A DNA stretch of 64,000 nt. It comes from Armatimonadota bacterium. GTDB taxonomy: Bacteria; Armatimonadota; Fimbriimonadia; Fimbriimonadales; Fimbriimonadaceae. Under the pieces are notes generated by a model. That model was given only the letters and a program-made list of their open reading frames with translations. It had not been told where the DNA came from and did no database searches. This document shows positions 32,843-63,453 of the stretch, one piece after another; the first letter of the stretch is position 1, and the number at the start of each line of letters is the position of its first letter. The position numbers and the translations under genes are program-made. The stretch spans positions 62,001 to 126,000 of the forward strand of contig JADFMN010000008.1 of the NCBI GenBank assembly GCA_022563855.1, written 5' to 3'.

Positions 32843-33128
32843 GACGCGCTGCTCTGTTACGGGCGACGAGTGACGCGTGTCGCCTCTCGCCAGTCGCTGG
32901 CGCACGGCCTGCCCTTCGGGCCAGACCGTGGCACCCGTCACCGGAGGAGGCGAACGGCGCGAAAGCCCGAGAGCACAAGGCGCGAAGATTCTTGAGGTAC
33001 CGCGAGCCGCCGTTAGGCGCGTTCGCCTGGTCGACTTTCCGACCATTAGGCGACAGCGCAGCGAGCGACGGCGCAGCGGGCGACAGCGAAGAGGGCGACG
33101 CCCCAAGGAATCACGCCACAATAGGCGC
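32843..33128. repeat. Intergenic cluster of three dispersed repeats
   Basis: This spacer holds three elements that recur elsewhere. 32901-32936 matches 60782-60817 with one mismatch in 36. 32946-32974 matches 36620-36649 with two substitutions and one indel. 33042-33084 matches the inverse of 52693-52735 at 37 of 43 positions. No gene is supported; the open frame across it contains only repeat-encoded Arg/Ser/Gly. Confidence 0.75.
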
Positions 33129-35243
33129 ATGATCCACGCGCGCCCTCTGTTCACTGTCGCCGCAATCGCCCTTGCATCGTTCGCCCTGACCCAAGACCGG
33201 CTCGCCGGGATGATCGACATCTCGGACCGGACGGCCAAGAAGTCCGAGATCCAAAAGGCGATGAAGATCGTCCGCCCACAGGCGCGGTGGATCGATGGCG
33301 CCACCGTGGCGGTGCAGCTCGATGGCGATTGGTACTCGGTCGATGCACGAACCGGTGCGAAGACCAAGCTGGAGGAGGCCCCTGAGCGCACCCGTCCGCA
33401 GCGCAGCGACCACCCGAACAGCAAGCGCAGCCGCCCGGCGCGCGGCAGGCAGTACACCGAAGAGTTCAGCCCCGACGGCTCGATGCGAGCGTTCTACGAG
33501 GGCGGCAACCTCTACGTCGAGAAAGCCGACGGGACCAACCGCAAAGCCGTGACGACCGAGGGCGACCTCAGCAAGAGGATCAAGTTCGGCAGCGCGAGCT
33601 GGGTCTACGGCGAAGAACTCGGCCAGCGCGACGCGATGGGCTGGTCGCCCGACGGCAAGATGGTGTGGTACTACAGGTTCGACGACAGCATGGTGCAGGA
33701 CTACTACATCGCCATGGCTCAAACGAAGATCCAGACCACGCTCGACACCGAGGCGTACCCGAAGGCGGGCACCGCCAACCCGGAGTGCGAGCTCTACATC
33801 TACCACGTCGATGGCGGTGGGAGTCAGCTGATCGACGTTCGAGCTGGCGAGTTCAGCGAGGATGTCGGACACTACGTCTACGCTATCACGTGGTCTCCAG
33901 ACAGGACGGAGCTGCTGTTCCATCGCACAAACCGTTGGCAGAACGTCATGGAGTTCTGCGCCGCAAACCCCGAAACCGGCGCAGTGCGCGTGATCGTGCG
34001 CGAAGAGTGGCCGAACGGCTGGACCGACAACCGACCGCAGCGCCAGTACCTCGACCAGCACGCCGACATCGAGAAGGCAACGCAGTACCGGGGCAAGATG
34101 ATCTGGCGCAGCTCGCGCACGGGCTTCCGAAACTTCTATCTGGTGGACATGGACAGCGGCGAGACGACTGCGATCACCAACAACGAGCTGGACGCAACGA
34201 CGATCCTGCGCGTCGACCTCGTCAAGGGCGAGATGTTCTACATGGCCGCGGGGCCGTTCAACCCTTACAAGATGCAGCTGCACCGGGCACAGTTGGACGG
34301 CTCGCTCGATGAAATGCTGACAAACCCGAACTACCACCACTCGGTCAGCCTCTCGCCCAACGGAAGTTCGTTCGTAGACACGTGGGAGACGGTTGGCACG
34401 CCGCCTACCACGACTCTACGCATGGTCAGCGGAGGAGACGGCCACACGATTTCCAAGAGCGACATCCGCGGCGCTGTCGAGCTAGGCTTCCGACCGATGG
34501 AGCGCGTGATCTTCCTAGCGGCCGACGGTTTGACCCACTGCTACGGCACGCTCCAGTTCCCCGCCGACTTCGACCCTAGCAGAAAGTACCCAGTGATCGT
34601 GAACATCTACGCAGGCCCGGAGAGCAGCGGGCACAACGAGCGGTTCGCCTCGTTCGACCGCAAGACCGACTACGGCTTCATAGTCGCGCGGTTCGCCGTC
34701 CGGGGCAACAGCGGGCGGGGCAAGAAGTTCATGGACGCGGCGTACCAAAAGCTCGGAGTGACCGAGATCGACGACCACGCGGAGGCGGTGAAGGCGATCG
34801 GCGAGCTGCCTTATGTGGACGCATCTCGCATCGGCATTACCGGCACGTCGTACGGCGGGTATTCGTCGACCATGTGCCTGCTCCGCTACCCTGAACTGTT
34901 CCACGCGGCGGTCGCCTCGAGCTCCGTCACCAAGTGGGACCACTACGACACGATCTACACCGAGCGGTACATGCGAACGCCGCAAGCGAACCCGGAAGGA
35001 TATAAGGCGGGCTCCGCGATGACCTACGCCAAGGATCTCAAGGGCTGGCTCCTGCTGTTCTACGGCACGAGCGACAACAACGTCCACCAGGCGAACAGTT
35101 ACGAGCTGATCCAGGCGCTGCAACGCGCGGGCAAGTACTTCGAGGTGCAGGTCGGCCCCGACCGAGGGCACTCCGGCATCAACTTCAACCGCTCGATGGA
35201 GTTCTTCGTCGAGCGGCTGCTGATCACCGGGCCGCGCGGGTGA
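33129..35243 (+). CDS. S9 family prolyl oligopeptidase / dipeptidyl-peptidase IV-like, exported
   Basis: 704 residues from ATG 33129, which opens a signal-like segment (MIHARPLFTVAAIALASFAL). An N-terminal beta-propeller resembles DPP IV (YTEEFSPDGSMRAFYEGGNL, SASWVYGEEL, MGWSPDGKMVWYYRFDD, YAITWSPDRTELLFHR). The C-terminal alpha/beta-hydrolase has the nucleophile in ITGTSYGGYSS (Ser574), Asp649 in YGTSDNNVH and His681 in DRGHSGIN, a complete catalytic triad. The paired Glu of the DPP IV family is present in WVYGEEL. It cleaves dipeptides from peptide N-termini outside the cytoplasm. The stop overlaps the next gene (TGATG). Confidence 0.93.
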   Translation: MIHARPLFTVAAIALASFALTQDRLAGMIDISDRTAKKSEIQKAMKIVRPQARWIDGATVAVQLDGDWYSVDARTGAKTKLEEAPERTRPQRSDHPNSKRSRPARGRQYTEEFSPDGSMRAFYEGGNLYVEKADGTNRKAVTTEGDLSKRIKFGSASWVYGEELGQRDAMGWSPDGKMVWYYRFDDSMVQDYYIAMAQTKIQTTLDTEAYPKAGTANPECELYIYHVDGGGSQLIDVRAGEFSEDVGHYVYAITWSPDRTELLFHRTNRWQNVMEFCAANPETGAVRVIVREEWPNGWTDNRPQRQYLDQHADIEKATQYRGKMIWRSSRTGFRNFYLVDMDSGETTAITNNELDATTILRVDLVKGEMFYMAAGPFNPYKMQLHRAQLDGSLDEMLTNPNYHHSVSLSPNGSSFVDTWETVGTPPTTTLRMVSGGDGHTISKSDIRGAVELGFRPMERVIFLAADGLTHCYGTLQFPADFDPSRKYPVIVNIYAGPESSGHNERFASFDRKTDYGFIVARFAVRGNSGRGKKFMDAAYQKLGVTEIDDHAEAVKAIGELPYVDASRIGITGTSYGGYSSTMCLLRYPELFHAAVASSSVTKWDHYDTIYTERYMRTPQANPEGYKAGSAMTYAKDLKGWLLLFYGTSDNNVHQANSYELIQALQRAGKYFEVQVGPDRGHSGINFNRSMEFFVERLLITGPRG

Positions 35244-35605
35244 TGGAAGTCATCGACCTGGCCGAGAAGTTCGCCAAGTTCTCCGAACATTGGAGGCCGA
35301 AGCTGGTCGCGGAGCTGAACGGCCAGGAGGTCAAGCTCGCAAAGTTCCAGGGACCGTTCGTGTGGCACAAGCATGACGACGCTGACGAGATGTTCCTCGT
35401 CTGGCGCGGTTCGATGTCCGTTGAGTTTCGGGATCGGGTCGTTCCATTGAAGGAGGGCCAGATGATCGTCGTCCCGCGCGGCGTCGAGCACCGCCCCGTC
35501 GCCAATTCAGAAGTCGAGGTCCTGCTGTTCGAGCCTGCTGGAGTCAGGAACACAGGCGACGTGGAAGACGACGAAAAGACGGCGCCGAAGGTTGAGCGGA
35601 TTTGA
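35243..35605 (+). CDS. Small cupin-domain protein
   Basis: 120 residues. Cupin motif 1 is seen in FVWHKHDDADEMFLVWRG, which gives two His and the Glu as metal ligands. Motif 2 is seen in LKEGQMIVVPRGVEHRPVA with the third His. A single-domain cupin of this size is often a sugar or small-molecule isomerase, dioxygenase or binding protein; the substrate cannot be told. ATG at 35243 overlaps the peptidase stop by one base, so it is translationally coupled to it. Confidence 0.85.
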   Translation: MEVIDLAEKFAKFSEHWRPKLVAELNGQEVKLAKFQGPFVWHKHDDADEMFLVWRGSMSVEFRDRVVPLKEGQMIVVPRGVEHRPVANSEVEVLLFEPAGVRNTGDVEDDEKTAPKVERI

Positions 35606-35775
35606 GTCGCATGATCCTCCTTTGCAGCCGGACACGGACAAACCCTCCGGGCCTGACCGTGGCGGACTTGGTGGCCAAGATGGAGGGCGTTGCTCCGTCA
35701 ACGCCATTAAGGACCGAAGGGACGTCTTCCGCCGTCACCACTAAAGACTCATGCCTGCCCCGCACGGCCATCGGG

Positions 35776-35788
35776 ACAACCATGCCAC
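35776..35788. repeat. Dispersed 13-mer ACAACCATGCCAC
   Basis: An identical 13-mer occurs at 53028-53040, and its inverse at 52796-52808. All copies are intergenic and sit in repeat-rich spacers. The flanking bases 35606-35797 contain no supportable gene. Confidence 0.5.
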
Positions 35789-35797
35789 GCGTCGTCC

Positions 35798-35943
35798 GTC
35801 ATCCTGAGCGGATCGAAGGATTGGCAGAACAGGGTCAGTAATCCCCCACCGTCATCCTGAGCGGATCGAAGGATTGGCAGAACAGGGTCAGTAATCCCCC
35901 ACCGTCATCCTGAGCGGATCGAAGGAGCGCGGTGGGGGATTAC
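35798..35943. repeat. 53-bp tandem array with a terminal 14-bp inverted repeat
   Basis: The 23-mer GTCATCCTGAGCGGATCGAAGGA starts at 35798, 35851 and 35904, giving a strict 53-bp period. The linker is TTGGCAGAACAGGGTCAGTAATCCCCCACC (first 20 bases, then the rest). After the third copy CGGTGGGGGATTAC (35930-35943) is the perfect inverse of GTAATCCCCCACCG (35891-35904), a 14-bp stem with a 25-base loop. It lies downstream (3') of the minus-strand GIY-YIG gene. Confidence 0.9.
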
Positions 35944-36023
35944 GTATTCTTCCACGAGTTCGCTGGCAAGCCACCGTCCCAAACCCGCCGTCTTTGCCTT
36001 CGTCAAGCCCAGGACAGGCTCGC

Positions 36024-36350
36024 TCAAGATGACGAACTTGGTTTGTCCTCGTCCTCGCGTTCTCGCTCGTTGTAAGGCAGCGCCAGCCCCGGCAAGTCCT
36101 CAATCCGCCCTTCGATCAGGGCGATTTTCTTCTCTCGCCGCCAACCCTTTACTCTCTTCTCGAAACTGATCGCCTGGTCCATATCTGGGAAGTTGGAGCT
36201 CCAGACTAGCTGGCACGGTCCGTTCCTCTTCGTGAACCCTTCAATTACTCCGTGCTCGTGTTCTGACAGCCTGTATTCGAGATCGGAGGTGACTCCGATG
36301 TAGAACTTGCCCGTTCGGCACTCTAGGATGTAGACGGCAGGGTACTTCAC
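36024..36350 (-). CDS. GIY-YIG nuclease domain protein
   Basis: 108 residues, a stand-alone GIY-YIG domain like the UPF0213/YhbQ group. The motif pair appears as YPAVYILECRTGKFYIGVTS. The catalytic Arg lies in YRLSEHEHG, and the metal-binding Glu in AISFEKRVKGWRREKK with the usual basic helix. The C-terminal tail is acidic (NEREREDEDKPSSSS). Such small enzymes cut DNA; cellular roles are poorly defined. It is flanked on both sides by inverted, tandemly amplified copies of a 23-bp sequence, which suggests it may move with or act on these repeats. It lies in the gap between the convergent cupin and cinA genes. Confidence 0.88.
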   Translation of the reverse strand: MKYPAVYILECRTGKFYIGVTSDLEYRLSEHEHGVIEGFTKRNGPCQLVWSSNFPDMDQAISFEKRVKGWRREKKIALIEGRIEDLPGLALPYNEREREDEDKPSSSS

Positions 36351-36394
36351 CTTGGTGGGAACTCTACCTCTGTGCGACCGCCCCAGACCCGCGC

Positions 36395-36564
36395 TCCTTC
36401 GATCCGCTCAGGATGACGGGTCTGGGGCTGGCTCCGTGCTCAGTCGATCCGCTCAGGATGACGGGCCTGGGGCTGGCTCCGTGCTCAGTCGATCCGCTCA
36501 GGATGACGGGCCTGGGGCTGGCTCCGTGCTCAGTCGATCCGCTCAGGATGACGGGCCTGGGGCT
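36395..36564. repeat. 45-bp tandem array, four copies
   Basis: TCGATCCGCTCAGGATGACG starts at 36399, 36444, 36489 and 36534, a strict 45-bp period, with linker GGCCTGGGGCTGGCTCCGTG then CTCAG. It is inverse in orientation to the array at 35798-35926. Because 45 is divisible by 3 an open frame runs through it (repeating SAQDDGPGAGSVLSR), but this is not treated as a gene. Confidence 0.9.
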
Positions 36565-36662
36565 AACTCGGTGAAACTTCGGAGACGCGCACCAGAATGG
36601 CTGCCTCGGGACTCCCCATGGAGGGCGAACGGCGCGATAGCCCGTGAGCCGCCGAAGCGGGG
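36565..36662. repeat. Spacer with dispersed repeat between the 45-bp array and cinA
   Basis: 36620-36649 (GGAGGGCGAACGGCGCGATA, then GCCCGTGAGC) matches 32946-32974. No gene seen. Confidence 0.55.
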
Positions 36663-37901
36663 TCAGTTTTCAGTCGCTGCGACTCTCTTTCGCAATGCAA
36701 CCAAGGCCTGCTGGATCGTGCGGGCTCGGATCGCATCGCGTTGACCCGGGAAGACGTTCTTTTCGACGGTTGTTCCGCCCGCCTCAGCGACTCCGATGTA
36801 CACGAGGCCCACCGGCTTCTCTTCGCTCCCACCGCCCGGACCTGCGATGCCTGTGATGCTCACGCCCCAGTCCGCGCCGGTCCGCTCGCGCACGCCCTCG
36901 GCCATTTCGCAAGCGGCCTGCGAACTCACAGCTCCGTGGGTCTCAAGGGTCTCAGCAGACACACCGAGCATCTCGCTCTTCGTCTCGTTCGAGTAGCTGA
37001 TGACGCCGCCGAGGAACGCGGCAGACGAACCCGCGACCGAGGTGATCTGTGCGCCGAGACCGCCGCCGGTGCAGCTCTCTGCGACAGCCAAAGTCTCCCC
37101 CCTCTCTCGGAGCATCGCGAGTACGACCTCCTGCAAGGGGCGCTCATCGACAGAGAAAACTGCGTCGCCCAAGCGATTGCGGATCTCTTCTTCGACCGGA
37201 GCGATCATCGCCTCCGCCTCTTCGACCGTAGCTGCGCGCGCAGACACACGAAGGTGAACCTCGCCGACCTTCGCATACGGCGCAACCGTCGGGTTATCCA
37301 TCTTCATCAGCTCAAAGATCTTGCTCTCGATCATGCTCTCGCCCATACCCGCGACGCGCAGCACGCGGGAGTGGATCACGCCCTCGCTGACGCTCCGCAA
37401 GAACTCCGAGACGGGCCCTTCGAGCATCGGCATGAACTCCGCACGCGGCCCCGGCATTGCGATCAAGGTCTTCCCGTCCACCCGGCAAAGGAGCCCAGGC
37501 GCGGTGCCGTTCGGGTTGTCAAGAACTGTCGCAGAAGAGGGCCGGTACGCCTGGTTCCTCATGCTCGGCACAAACTGCACGCCACGAGCGCTGAGCCTCT
37601 CGCGAATCCCCTGCTCGATCGAATCGTCGTAAACCAGCTTGTCCCCCAGCGCCTCGACGATCCCATCGCGGGTGAGGTCATCCTGAGTTGGACCGAGCCC
37701 GCCGATGGTGAACACGATGTCAGATCGCGACAGCGCGAGCCGCAACGCATCAGCCAGGCGCCCAAGGTTGTCGCCCACCGTCTGCCGGTGAGTATGAAAA
37801 ACGCCGAACTTCGCAAGCACCTTGCCAAGTTCGGCGCTGTTCGTATCGACGATCTGCCCGAGGAGGATCTCAGTCCCGACCACGACGATCTCGGCGTTCA
37901 T
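36663..37901 (-). CDS. cinA: CinA family protein (nicotinamide-nucleotide amidase with MoCF domain)
   Basis: 412 residues, full length for two-domain CinA. The N-terminal MoCF-like domain has EIVVVGTEILLGQIVDTNS, FTIGGLGPTQDDLTRDGIVE and TAPGLLCRV. The C-terminal amidase has LAVAESCTGGGLGAQITSVA, GGVISYSNETKSEMLGV, VSSQAACEMAEG and ITGIAGPGGGSEEKPVGLVY. In known homologues the C-terminal domain deamidates NMN in pyridine-nucleotide recycling, and the N-terminal domain hydrolyses ADP-ribose. It starts at the ATG at 37901. No recA follows, so it is away from the classic competence context. Confidence 0.95.
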   Translation of the reverse strand: MNAEIVVVGTEILLGQIVDTNSAELGKVLAKFGVFHTHRQTVGDNLGRLADALRLALSRSDIVFTIGGLGPTQDDLTRDGIVEALGDKLVYDDSIEQGIRERLSARGVQFVPSMRNQAYRPSSATVLDNPNGTAPGLLCRVDGKTLIAMPGPRAEFMPMLEGPVSEFLRSVSEGVIHSRVLRVAGMGESMIESKIFELMKMDNPTVAPYAKVGEVHLRVSARAATVEEAEAMIAPVEEEIRNRLGDAVFSVDERPLQEVVLAMLRERGETLAVAESCTGGGLGAQITSVAGSSAAFLGGVISYSNETKSEMLGVSAETLETHGAVSSQAACEMAEGVRERTGADWGVSITGIAGPGGGSEEKPVGLVYIGVAEAGGTTVEKNVFPGQRDAIRARTIQQALVALRKRVAATEN

Positions 37902-62535: not shown

Positions 62536-63453
62536 CTATCCTTTCCGTTTGATCTTAGACCCGTCCGGGCTGAACGACGGATGAAAGTCGCTCGCCGCGC
62601 TGTTCGTCAGGTTCACCGGGTTCGTGCCGTCGGCGTTCATCGCGTAGACCTCCATGTTGCCGTCGCGGCCCGAGGTGAAAGCGATCTTAGACCCGTCCGG
62701 GCTGAACGAGGGCTCCCAGTCGACCGTCGCATTGTTCGTCAGCCTCAACTGGTTCGTGCCATCAGCGTTCATCACGTAGATCTCCCAGTTGCCGTCGCGG
62801 GCCGACGCGAAAGCGATCTGCGTCCCATCAGGGCTGAACGCTGGCTGCCAGTCGAACTCCTCGTTGTTAGTGAGCCTCACCGGGTTTGTGCCGTCGGCGT
62901 TCATCACGTAGATCTCACCGTTGCCGTCGCGGTGCGAGGTGAAAGCGATCTTCGACCCGTCCGGGCTGAATGAGGGATACCAGTCTGTGCCCGCTTTGTT
63001 CGTGAGCCTCACCTGGTGCGTGCCGTCGGCGTTCATCACGTATATCTCGTAGTTGCCGTCGCCGTGGTCCGAGGCGTAAGCGATCTTCCTCCCGTCTGGG
63101 CTGAACGCGGGGTTGCGGTCGAACGCGGTGTTGTTCGTGAGCCTCACCTGGTTCGTGCCGTCGGCGTTCATCACATAGATCTCCCAGTTACCTTCGGGTT
63201 TCGAGAGGAAGGCGATCTTCGACCCGTCCGGGCTGAACGAGGGCTCCAAGTCGAACGTGAGGTTGTTCGTGAGCCTCACTTGGTTCGTGCCATCGGCGTT
63301 CATCACGTATATCTCGAAGTTGCCGTCGCGCTTCGAGGTGAAGGCTATCTTCACTGGCGGCTCGGCGGAACCGTCCCCGCCGTCTCCGCCGCCGGAACCG
63401 ATGGTGGCCAGTGCGATCACCAGAAGTCCGGATATCCACGCCGCACGCTTCAT
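62536..63453 (-). CDS. Exported PD40 (WD40-like) six-blade propeller protein
   Basis: 305 residues from ATG 63453. Signal [19 protein letters not shown], then [10 protein letters not shown], a linker that looks like that of a lipoprotein but with Ser where the lipobox Cys would be. The mature part is six near-identical repeats of 42-43 residues (core [18 protein letters not shown], then [14 protein letters not shown]), encoded by a roughly 126-bp DNA repeat. A seventh begins and stops at KIKRKG. Such TolB-like propellers bind other periplasmic proteins or polymers. High repeat identity suggests recent expansion within the gene, so copy number may vary between strains. Confidence 0.9.

Follow-up and report, generated by a model that had tools for sequence, protein, structure and literature searches.

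A small GIY-YIG nuclease gene bracketed by CGTC-tagged hairpin repeats, a candidate REPtron-like mobile unit

Described REP systems and the window locus

In REP/RAYT (TnpA-REP) systems, a gene is flanked by inverted, tagged palindromes that also occur as dispersed solo copies and pairs. The locus described here has the same anatomy with a different enzyme and tag: REP/RAYT combines a HUH/Y1 tyrosine enzyme with a GTAG tag, whereas our locus combines a GIY-YIG nuclease with a CGTC tag, and no Y1 gene is flanked by its repeats. A second point of comparison is Ssn. A 2025 paper by Chenal et al. in Nat Commun is said to describe it as a small GIY-YIG nuclease specific for single strands, with the Neisseria repeat NTS as its target. 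This repeat reportedly exists in hundreds of copies, and homologues of differing specificity are said to occur in many bacteria. The enzyme was reportedly framed in terms of site-specific cleavage and the control of natural transformation.

CGTC-tagged REPs were defined by Di Nocera et al. 2013 (PMC3733652), whose excerpted text places them in many bacteria, includes the Neisseria dRS3 and Rickettsia RPE repeats among them, and describes them as apparently without a dedicated transposase. In these excerpts, CGTC repeats were found to flank no transposase gene, and the question of their spread was left open in 2013. The repeats of our locus share with them, as excerpted, the unpaired CGTC/TGTC tag, a short hairpin, intergenic location and multiple copies. 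The CGTC-1 to 4 REPs of the same excerpts have an 8-9-bp stem starting with AT, a 4-5-nt loop and a CCA tail. In contrast, our repeat has an inner stem of 4 bp, a loop of 11 nt and a long, variable outer stem of 13 bp, and it lacks the CCA. Since the published stem and loop sizes do not fit, we do not assign it to CGTC-1 to 4; repeats beside other homologues of the nuclease do have this stem, loop and tail. A literature search conducted largely without subscription and non-CC-BY papers found no paper pairing GIY-YIG genes with REPs.

We analyzed a stretch of 64,000 nucleotides from an Armatimonadota bacterium (the window), in which a GIY-YIG gene lies between two sets of repeats (Table 1). The encoded protein matched PF01541 with 56.6 bits (cut-off 22.6) and thus belongs to the GIY-YIG superfamily. 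Among 22 homologues, columns Y7, Y17, R27, H31, E64 and K65 were invariant or nearly so; we take Y7, Y17, R27, H31 and E64 to be the GIY-YIG catalytic positions. Of the solved structures, the family profile matched UPF0213 protein BH0048 alone (PDB 1zg2; E 2.8e-6).

Table 1. Features of the nuclease locus (window coordinates)
Feature	Position	Strand	Description
S9 peptidase gene	32877-35243	+	second flanking host gene; empty-site marker
Cupin gene	35240-35605	+	PF07883
3' tandem array	35796-35926	+	Tandem Repeats Finder: period 53 bp, 2.5 copies
3' tagged hairpin	35891-35943	+	arms GTAATCCCCCACC/GGTGGGGGATTAC enclosing the same core as the 5' hairpin; inverted repeat
Degenerate repeat (GTCATCTTGAGC...)	35996-36033	-	putative; read from the sequence and an alignment of three copies
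Class-1 (WRREKK-type) GIY-YIG nuclease gene	36024-36350	-	GTG start, 108 aa; PF01541
5' tagged hairpin	36380-36428	-	arms GCCCCAGACCCG/CGGGTCTGGGGC enclosing the invariant core; inverted repeat
5' tandem array	36399-36564	-	Tandem Repeats Finder: period 45 bp, 3.7 copies
cinA	36663-37901	-	flanking host gene; empty-site marker

A first-pass annotation of this DNA had described exact inverted copies of GTCATCCTGAGCGGATCGAA on the two sides of the gene, expanded to three copies at a 53-bp period on one side and to one full plus three near-full copies at a 45-bp period on the other. This description was accurate. Exact copies start at 35798, 35851 and 35904 on the + strand and at 36398 on the - strand, the latter followed by copies at 36443, 36488 and 36533 in which the final A is replaced by C; Tandem Repeats Finder returned the same arrays. 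In 100 dinucleotide shuffles, no occurrence of GTCATCCTGAGCGGATCGAA is expected in the window. The gene-proximal repeat on either side forms the tip of a long hairpin. The two hairpins are inverted relative to each other with their CGTC tags facing outward, and their arm sequences are unrelated. As single-stranded DNA, the 5' hairpin folds with -17.7 kcal/mol (z -5.1) and the 3' hairpin with -18.1 kcal/mol (z -6.1). The outer copies of both arrays consist of one arm and the core, the matching second arm being absent; in the 5' array, it is the left arm that is kept and the right arm that is missing, and the core is mutated in the outer copies. The 3' end of the gene appears to be overlapped by the degenerate repeat, which would contain the TGA stop codon. 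No Rfam match was obtained in 35500-36800 at E up to 0.1. Elsewhere in the window, 62551-63352 holds ~6 copies of a 132-bp unit (79% identity) that possibly codes for protein repeats.

Hairpin units in the source genome and its relatives

The first-pass annotation had proposed that a small GIY-YIG enzyme may spread or maintain its own repeat family, and had named as supporting signs an enrichment of the repeat in intergenic DNA in a whole-genome search, inverted pairs, and linkage to GIY-YIG genes in related genomes. Enrichment was borne out in the source genome (3.18 Mb, 22 contigs, 96.2% complete). We found 83 repeat sites at ≤3 mismatches, 32 of them exact, versus 3 for the reversed control. 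Only 10 of 23 repeats fell inside stop-to-stop frames of ≥150 codons, compared to 951 of 1150 random 19-mers; the 23 were taken from 30 fetched repeat loci after exclusion of neighbouring and contig-end loci. The same core also occurs in a second flank class, agggcgagc-core-GGACCTCGCGAGCCGCG, which lacks long variable arms (L001 and L023, at C1:405317 and C9:74728, and similar loci). The genome further encodes nine Y1 (PF01797) transposase-like proteins (C9:134668, C1:247072 and 7 more places), possibly RAYTs with repeats of their own.

Four GIY-YIG genes are present in the source genome, and both of the small class-1 genes are bracketed by the repeats, the paralogue on contig C13 also having an upstream 45-bp array. 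A third unit, on C10, has lost most of the gene. Both hairpins, left and right, are still present, together with the first codons and an internal fragment of the gene. When the three units (C8, C13 and the deleted C10 copy) were aligned, homology stopped at or just past the hairpins and arrays. A gene between inverted repeats, in several copies (C8, C13) and with a deleted derivative (C10), is a configuration shared with insertion sequences and MITEs. The remaining two GIY-YIG genes, one UvrC-sized (C7) and one at C10:105224, have their nearest repeat 7 and 33 kb away. The long hairpins next to the gene, the dispersed genomic sites and the second intact and third deleted bracketed copies go beyond the first-pass annotation.

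The full repeat is a hairpin with an invariant 25-nt core at its tip. The 12-13-bp stem differs in sequence between copies, but its two sides covary. Among 33 distinct, unselected elements, the 12 arm positions were paired in 69% of cells versus 42% when right arms were swapped between elements (1000 shuffles; maximum 52%). The covariation itself was measured on 20 elements of the source genome (18 distinct) that had been selected because their arms pair. In this stem class the core was invariant, the CGTC/TGTC tag was present in all 20 aligned copies as CGTCATCC, and 11 of the 13 outer pairs had changed on both sides. Double-change cells numbered 53 versus 15.4 ± 3.0 after shuffling, and the covariation score of 0.495 (shuffled 0.133 ± 0.020) was reached in none of 500 shuffles; the signal was lost when the alignment was slid by 1-3 columns. 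G-T intermediates were present, and a path from CTCAACC/GGTTGAG through CTCGACC/GGTTGAG to CTCGACC/GGTCGAG can be followed among the copies, indicating that the arms evolve by compensatory change. We also considered that the arms might be pre-existing target palindromes. For the source genome we rejected this possibility, since the seven hairpins retrieved with the commonest arm type and an arbitrary loop of 3-30 nt all contain the core; each of them was matched on both strands. Thus, with arms that pair and covary, and with the commonest type found only around the core, the arms are part of the element and their complementarity is maintained. This maintenance points to a single-stranded hairpin, of DNA or RNA, as the probable functional form.

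Searching with the window protein gave matches in 10 of 61 genomes. With a profile of the class, the strong matches (E < 1e-37) comprised eight genes in six genomes, and all eight genes were bracketed by inverted, short palindromes headed GTCA(T/C), in a version that differs by genome. Locus L039 is among them, with an inverted repeat pair at its nuclease gene. The repeat GTCAYNCTGAGCNNNNCGAAG was found in 44 copies in the source genome, 175 in G038 and 332 in G047, all with a class-1 gene, and in 4 copies in G001. Two of the 61 genomes (G027, 42 copies; G051, 40 copies) carry it without a class-1 gene. Thus, the repeats are able to persist, or spread, in the absence of the gene, which counts against strict dependence. 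The first-pass annotation had held that its proposal would fail if the repeat were abundant in genomes without the gene and unlinked to it; such abundance is seen in these two genomes, and linkage to the gene is nevertheless present.

Weaker profile matches, of a WKS type, had no such bracketing palindromes, and several adjoin tRNA genes. ARAGORN placed a tRNA-Ala or tRNA-Val within ~120 bp of the GIY-YIG gene in four (L041, L042, L043, L047) of five WKS-type loci checked, the fifth being L044. Copies of tRNA 3' parts lie on the opposite side of the gene in several loci, and at L189 a tmRNA is found ~150 bp upstream of the GIY-YIG match. The WKS-type class seems to be the tRNA-targeting equivalent of the class bracketed by repeats.

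Linkage and co-variation of nuclease and hairpin across phyla

Across phyla, 84,980 species genomes were scanned, giving at least 566 relatives. The best 80 of these and 14 loci from viral contigs make up a set of 94 loci (21 phyla in total, with the phylum named for 76 loci), and keeping the best 80 of at least 566 biases the sampling to one part of the nuclease family. Among 50,697 phage records, tblastn with one homologue (L050) gave a single match (E 2e-6).

Using no motif, we determined the best inverted repeat across the gene at 86 of the 94 loci. It scored ≥16 at 33 loci, whereas 13 of 1720 positions drawn at random from these loci did so. Most of the inverted repeats found carry GTCAT or its complement. 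For a tagged hairpin we then required [CT]GTC[AG] and after it a perfect stem of ≥5 bp; 85 loci lay far enough from contig ends to be scored. A tagged hairpin lay within 200 bp of the nuclease at 74 of the 85 loci. The corresponding figures were 233 of 1700 for random positions, 50 of 255 for other ORFs of the same loci, and, for control ORFs with non-ORF DNA on both sides, 18 of 74 (≥60 nt) and 13 of 38 (≥120 nt). Inverted pairs with outward tags flanked the gene at 30 of the 85 nuclease loci, compared to 2/255, 0/74 and 0/38 for these three sets of control ORFs. Median distances were 46.5 bp from the end of the upstream hairpin to the matched start (52 loci) and 35 bp from the stop codon to the downstream hairpin (53 loci). 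Eleven of the 85 homologues had no tagged hairpin by this strict test, some of them having imperfect GTCAT palindromes, and no clear CGTC hairpin adjoins the homologues of R. tumorigenes and S. meliloti.

In non-ORF DNA of the same loci, tagged hairpins occurred at 6.5 per kb near the gene versus 1.4 per kb elsewhere. This difference bears on a reading in which the hairpins terminate transcription or stabilise RNA, and lie near GIY-YIG genes by chance because intergenic DNA is rich in repeats. An RNA hairpin would also be compatible with stem covariation through G-T intermediates, and the repeats are mostly outside long frames. However, chance proximity accounts neither for the local density nor for the inverted pairs, and it leaves the invariance of the core and the pairing across phyla unexplained. 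Together with the tree of repeat types described below, the linkage tests largely refute this reading, which we regard as very improbable.

Many of the repeats that flank the homologues are exactly CGTC-tagged REP types in the excerpts of PMC3733652, and in A. lipoferum, Neisseria and N. aromaticivorans, all named there, the nuclease adjoins CGTC-tagged hairpins. The N. aromaticivorans homologue is inside an inverted pair of CGTCGCCCC... repeats, and in N. gonorrhoeae dRS3-type repeats (CGTCATTCCC...) surround an unannotated gene. Over 76 aa, the product of this gene and the window protein share 49% identity, a relationship that links our class to the Ssn family by sequence; presumably, the N. 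gonorrhoeae protein is Ssn itself. Note that the N. gonorrhoeae locus (L144, NZ_CP119142.1 1880219-1883455) comes from a 2.17-Mb 'plasmid' record with 17 annotated features that is probably the chromosome. In many flanking repeats (L067, L091, L130 and others), the tag and first stem bases are constant and the loops range from 4 to >20 nt, some of the variable loops containing inner palindromes. With loops this variable, recognition may rest on the tag and the first bases of the stem.

To relate repeat type to nuclease phylogeny, a tree was built from 101 nuclease fragments over 79 columns (3 of 104 rows were dropped for an internal stop); it has few well-supported forks. Fixed patterns assigned a repeat type to 78 of the 101 rows. 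On the tree, repeat type required 27 changes, versus a mean of 53.8 and a minimum of 47 after shuffling. For the 57 rows labelled with both repeat type and phylum, repeat type required 21 changes (shuffled 38.6) and phylum 31 (shuffled 41.6). Thus, the nuclease tree is followed better by repeat type than by phylum. Proteins from different phyla were 62.0% identical when their repeat type was the same and 55.5% when it differed, a difference as large as this arising in none of 2000 permutations. In 25 of 57 cases (7.1 expected), the nearest row from another phylum shared the repeat type.

The flanking repeat type was also more often multicopy in the genome than a non-flanking one. Three repeat types were counted in 49 of 50 genomes, with groups fixed beforehand and genomes with ≥5 copies tallied by hand; L080 and L086 carry two types. 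At least five copies were present in 26 of 31 genomes for the flanking type, versus 22 of 116 genome-type combinations where the type was non-flanking. For the individual types, the fractions were 7/10 flanking versus 3/39 non-flanking (TTTCGA), 7/9 versus 8/40 (TTCCxG) and 12/12 versus 11/37 (TTCTGA). A non-flanking type was also abundant in several genomes, for example with 148 copies in G065.

The inverted pairs and the linkage to GIY-YIG genes that the first-pass annotation had named as supporting signs were thus seen both in the relatives and across phyla, and the co-variation of repeat type with the nuclease adds to them. In light of these results, we consider it highly probable that this nuclease class is paired with its own tagged palindrome. 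The co-variation also speaks against the view that Y1/RAYT-type transposases move these repeats as they would any ordinary REP, with the GIY-YIG gene merely inserting beside or inside REP pairs. This view could draw on the nine PF01797 proteins of the source genome and on the IS elements that target REPs according to excerpts of PMC1525189. However, none of the nine Y1 genes is within 12 kb of a repeat, it is the GIY-YIG clade that repeat type tracks across phyla, and the excerpts of PMC3733652 describe no transposase gene flanked by CGTC repeats. We therefore consider transposition by Y1 enzymes improbable.

Empty sites and the proposed mobile unit

The flanking host genes serve as markers of empty sites in relatives. 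The cinA gene was matched in 41 of 41 genomes. In G001 (same genus) and G016 (same family), cinA and the S9 peptidase gene are adjacent, 53 and 21 bp apart, and the interval contains no cupin gene, no nuclease gene and no repeats. Nine of the 11 loci fetched from relatives were uninformative, the S9 neighbour being out of reach. In A. lipoferum 4B, each side of the nuclease gene has a REP pair, and the whole is placed between sufB and sufC; gene and REP pairs are both absent from this interval in 5 of 5 relatives fetched.

Alleles from Sphingobium plasmids were aligned, four of them filled and four empty. The empty allele of TomTYG64 has the form CGTC-stem-loop-stem-GACG and corresponds exactly to the outer half of each of the two REPs in the filled allele. 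It is compatible with excision or insertion at the hairpin loop and, equally, with deletion between 8-bp direct repeats. TomTYG74 carries a mutated version of this allele, and TomTYG72 and TomTYG65 have other sequences at this place. In addition, one REP pair of TomMM7A is missing from TomTYG46 in syntenic 50-kb plasmid stretches, with junctions that are not clean. No target-site duplication was identified, the intergenic flanks being too diverged to place junctions.

GIY-YIG is a classical fold of homing nucleases, and the units lie between genes at positions unoccupied in relatives. Both would fit a homing endonuclease that cuts alleles lacking the unit and has it copied in by host repair, the repeats being by-products or the recognition site. 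However, every fetched insertion is at a different, unrelated locus, which is not expected from homing to one allele, and the enzyme co-varies with the repeat, not with a target gene. Homing is accordingly a poor explanation, in our view slightly less probable than movement by Y1 enzymes.

A more serious alternative is a cognate pair without mobilisation. Here, the enzyme would cut its own repeat in single-stranded, for example imported, DNA and thereby control transformation or recombination; the repeats would spread by slippage, recombination or other enzymes, and the gene would gain from flanking sites. The linkage and co-variation data fit this alternative too, the orphan repeats of G027 and G051 agree with it, and so does the transformation role reported for the Neisseria homologue Ssn. 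Less easily accommodated are the occurrence of gene and repeats as a unit at unrelated places, the three copies in the source genome, one of them deleted, and the empty sites. We regard it as possible but rather unlikely.

The explanation that we favour, as a probable one, is that the nuclease and its cognate hairpin site form, as gene plus inverted repeats, a REPtron-like mobile unit. The enzyme, a small GIY-YIG nuclease, would be site-specific, with the tagged hairpin that brackets its gene as its cognate site, the dispersed repeats would be non-autonomous derivatives of the unit, and the tandem arrays would have arisen by expansion at its ends. The repeat may be read as single-stranded hairpin DNA, such as lagging-strand template or imported DNA, and nicked near the tag or loop; the break could then lead to a copy of the hairpin, or of hairpin-gene-hairpin, being inserted or copied elsewhere. 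That the nuclease itself is the agent mobilising both the unit and the solo repeats is suggested by the anatomy, the empty sites and the co-variation, whereas the orphan repeats and the absence of clean junctions speak against it; we hold this to be somewhat better than an even chance. Of the first-pass proposal that the enzyme spreads or maintains its own repeats, the association of the two is thus supported by linkage and co-variation, and the spreading is what we infer from sequence comparison.

In its widest form, for which we see the chances as about even, class-1 GIY-YIG nucleases would be what mobilises the CGTC-tagged REP superfamily, for which a mover has been missing. They would make up a second kind of REPtron, one that needs no transposase, in ~20 phyla (some represented by a single locus). 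Site-specific hairpin nuclease and palindrome would co-evolve and be transferred together, and the nuclease-REP-REP unit would hop into new sites, including operons. If true, a nuclease travelling with CGTC-tagged REPs would provide a testable answer to how these REPs spread and would account for the recurrence of the same small set of palindromes in unrelated phyla. It would also provide a catalogue of enzyme-site pairs, with each homologue annotated by its flanking repeat, for the development of site-specific DNA tools.
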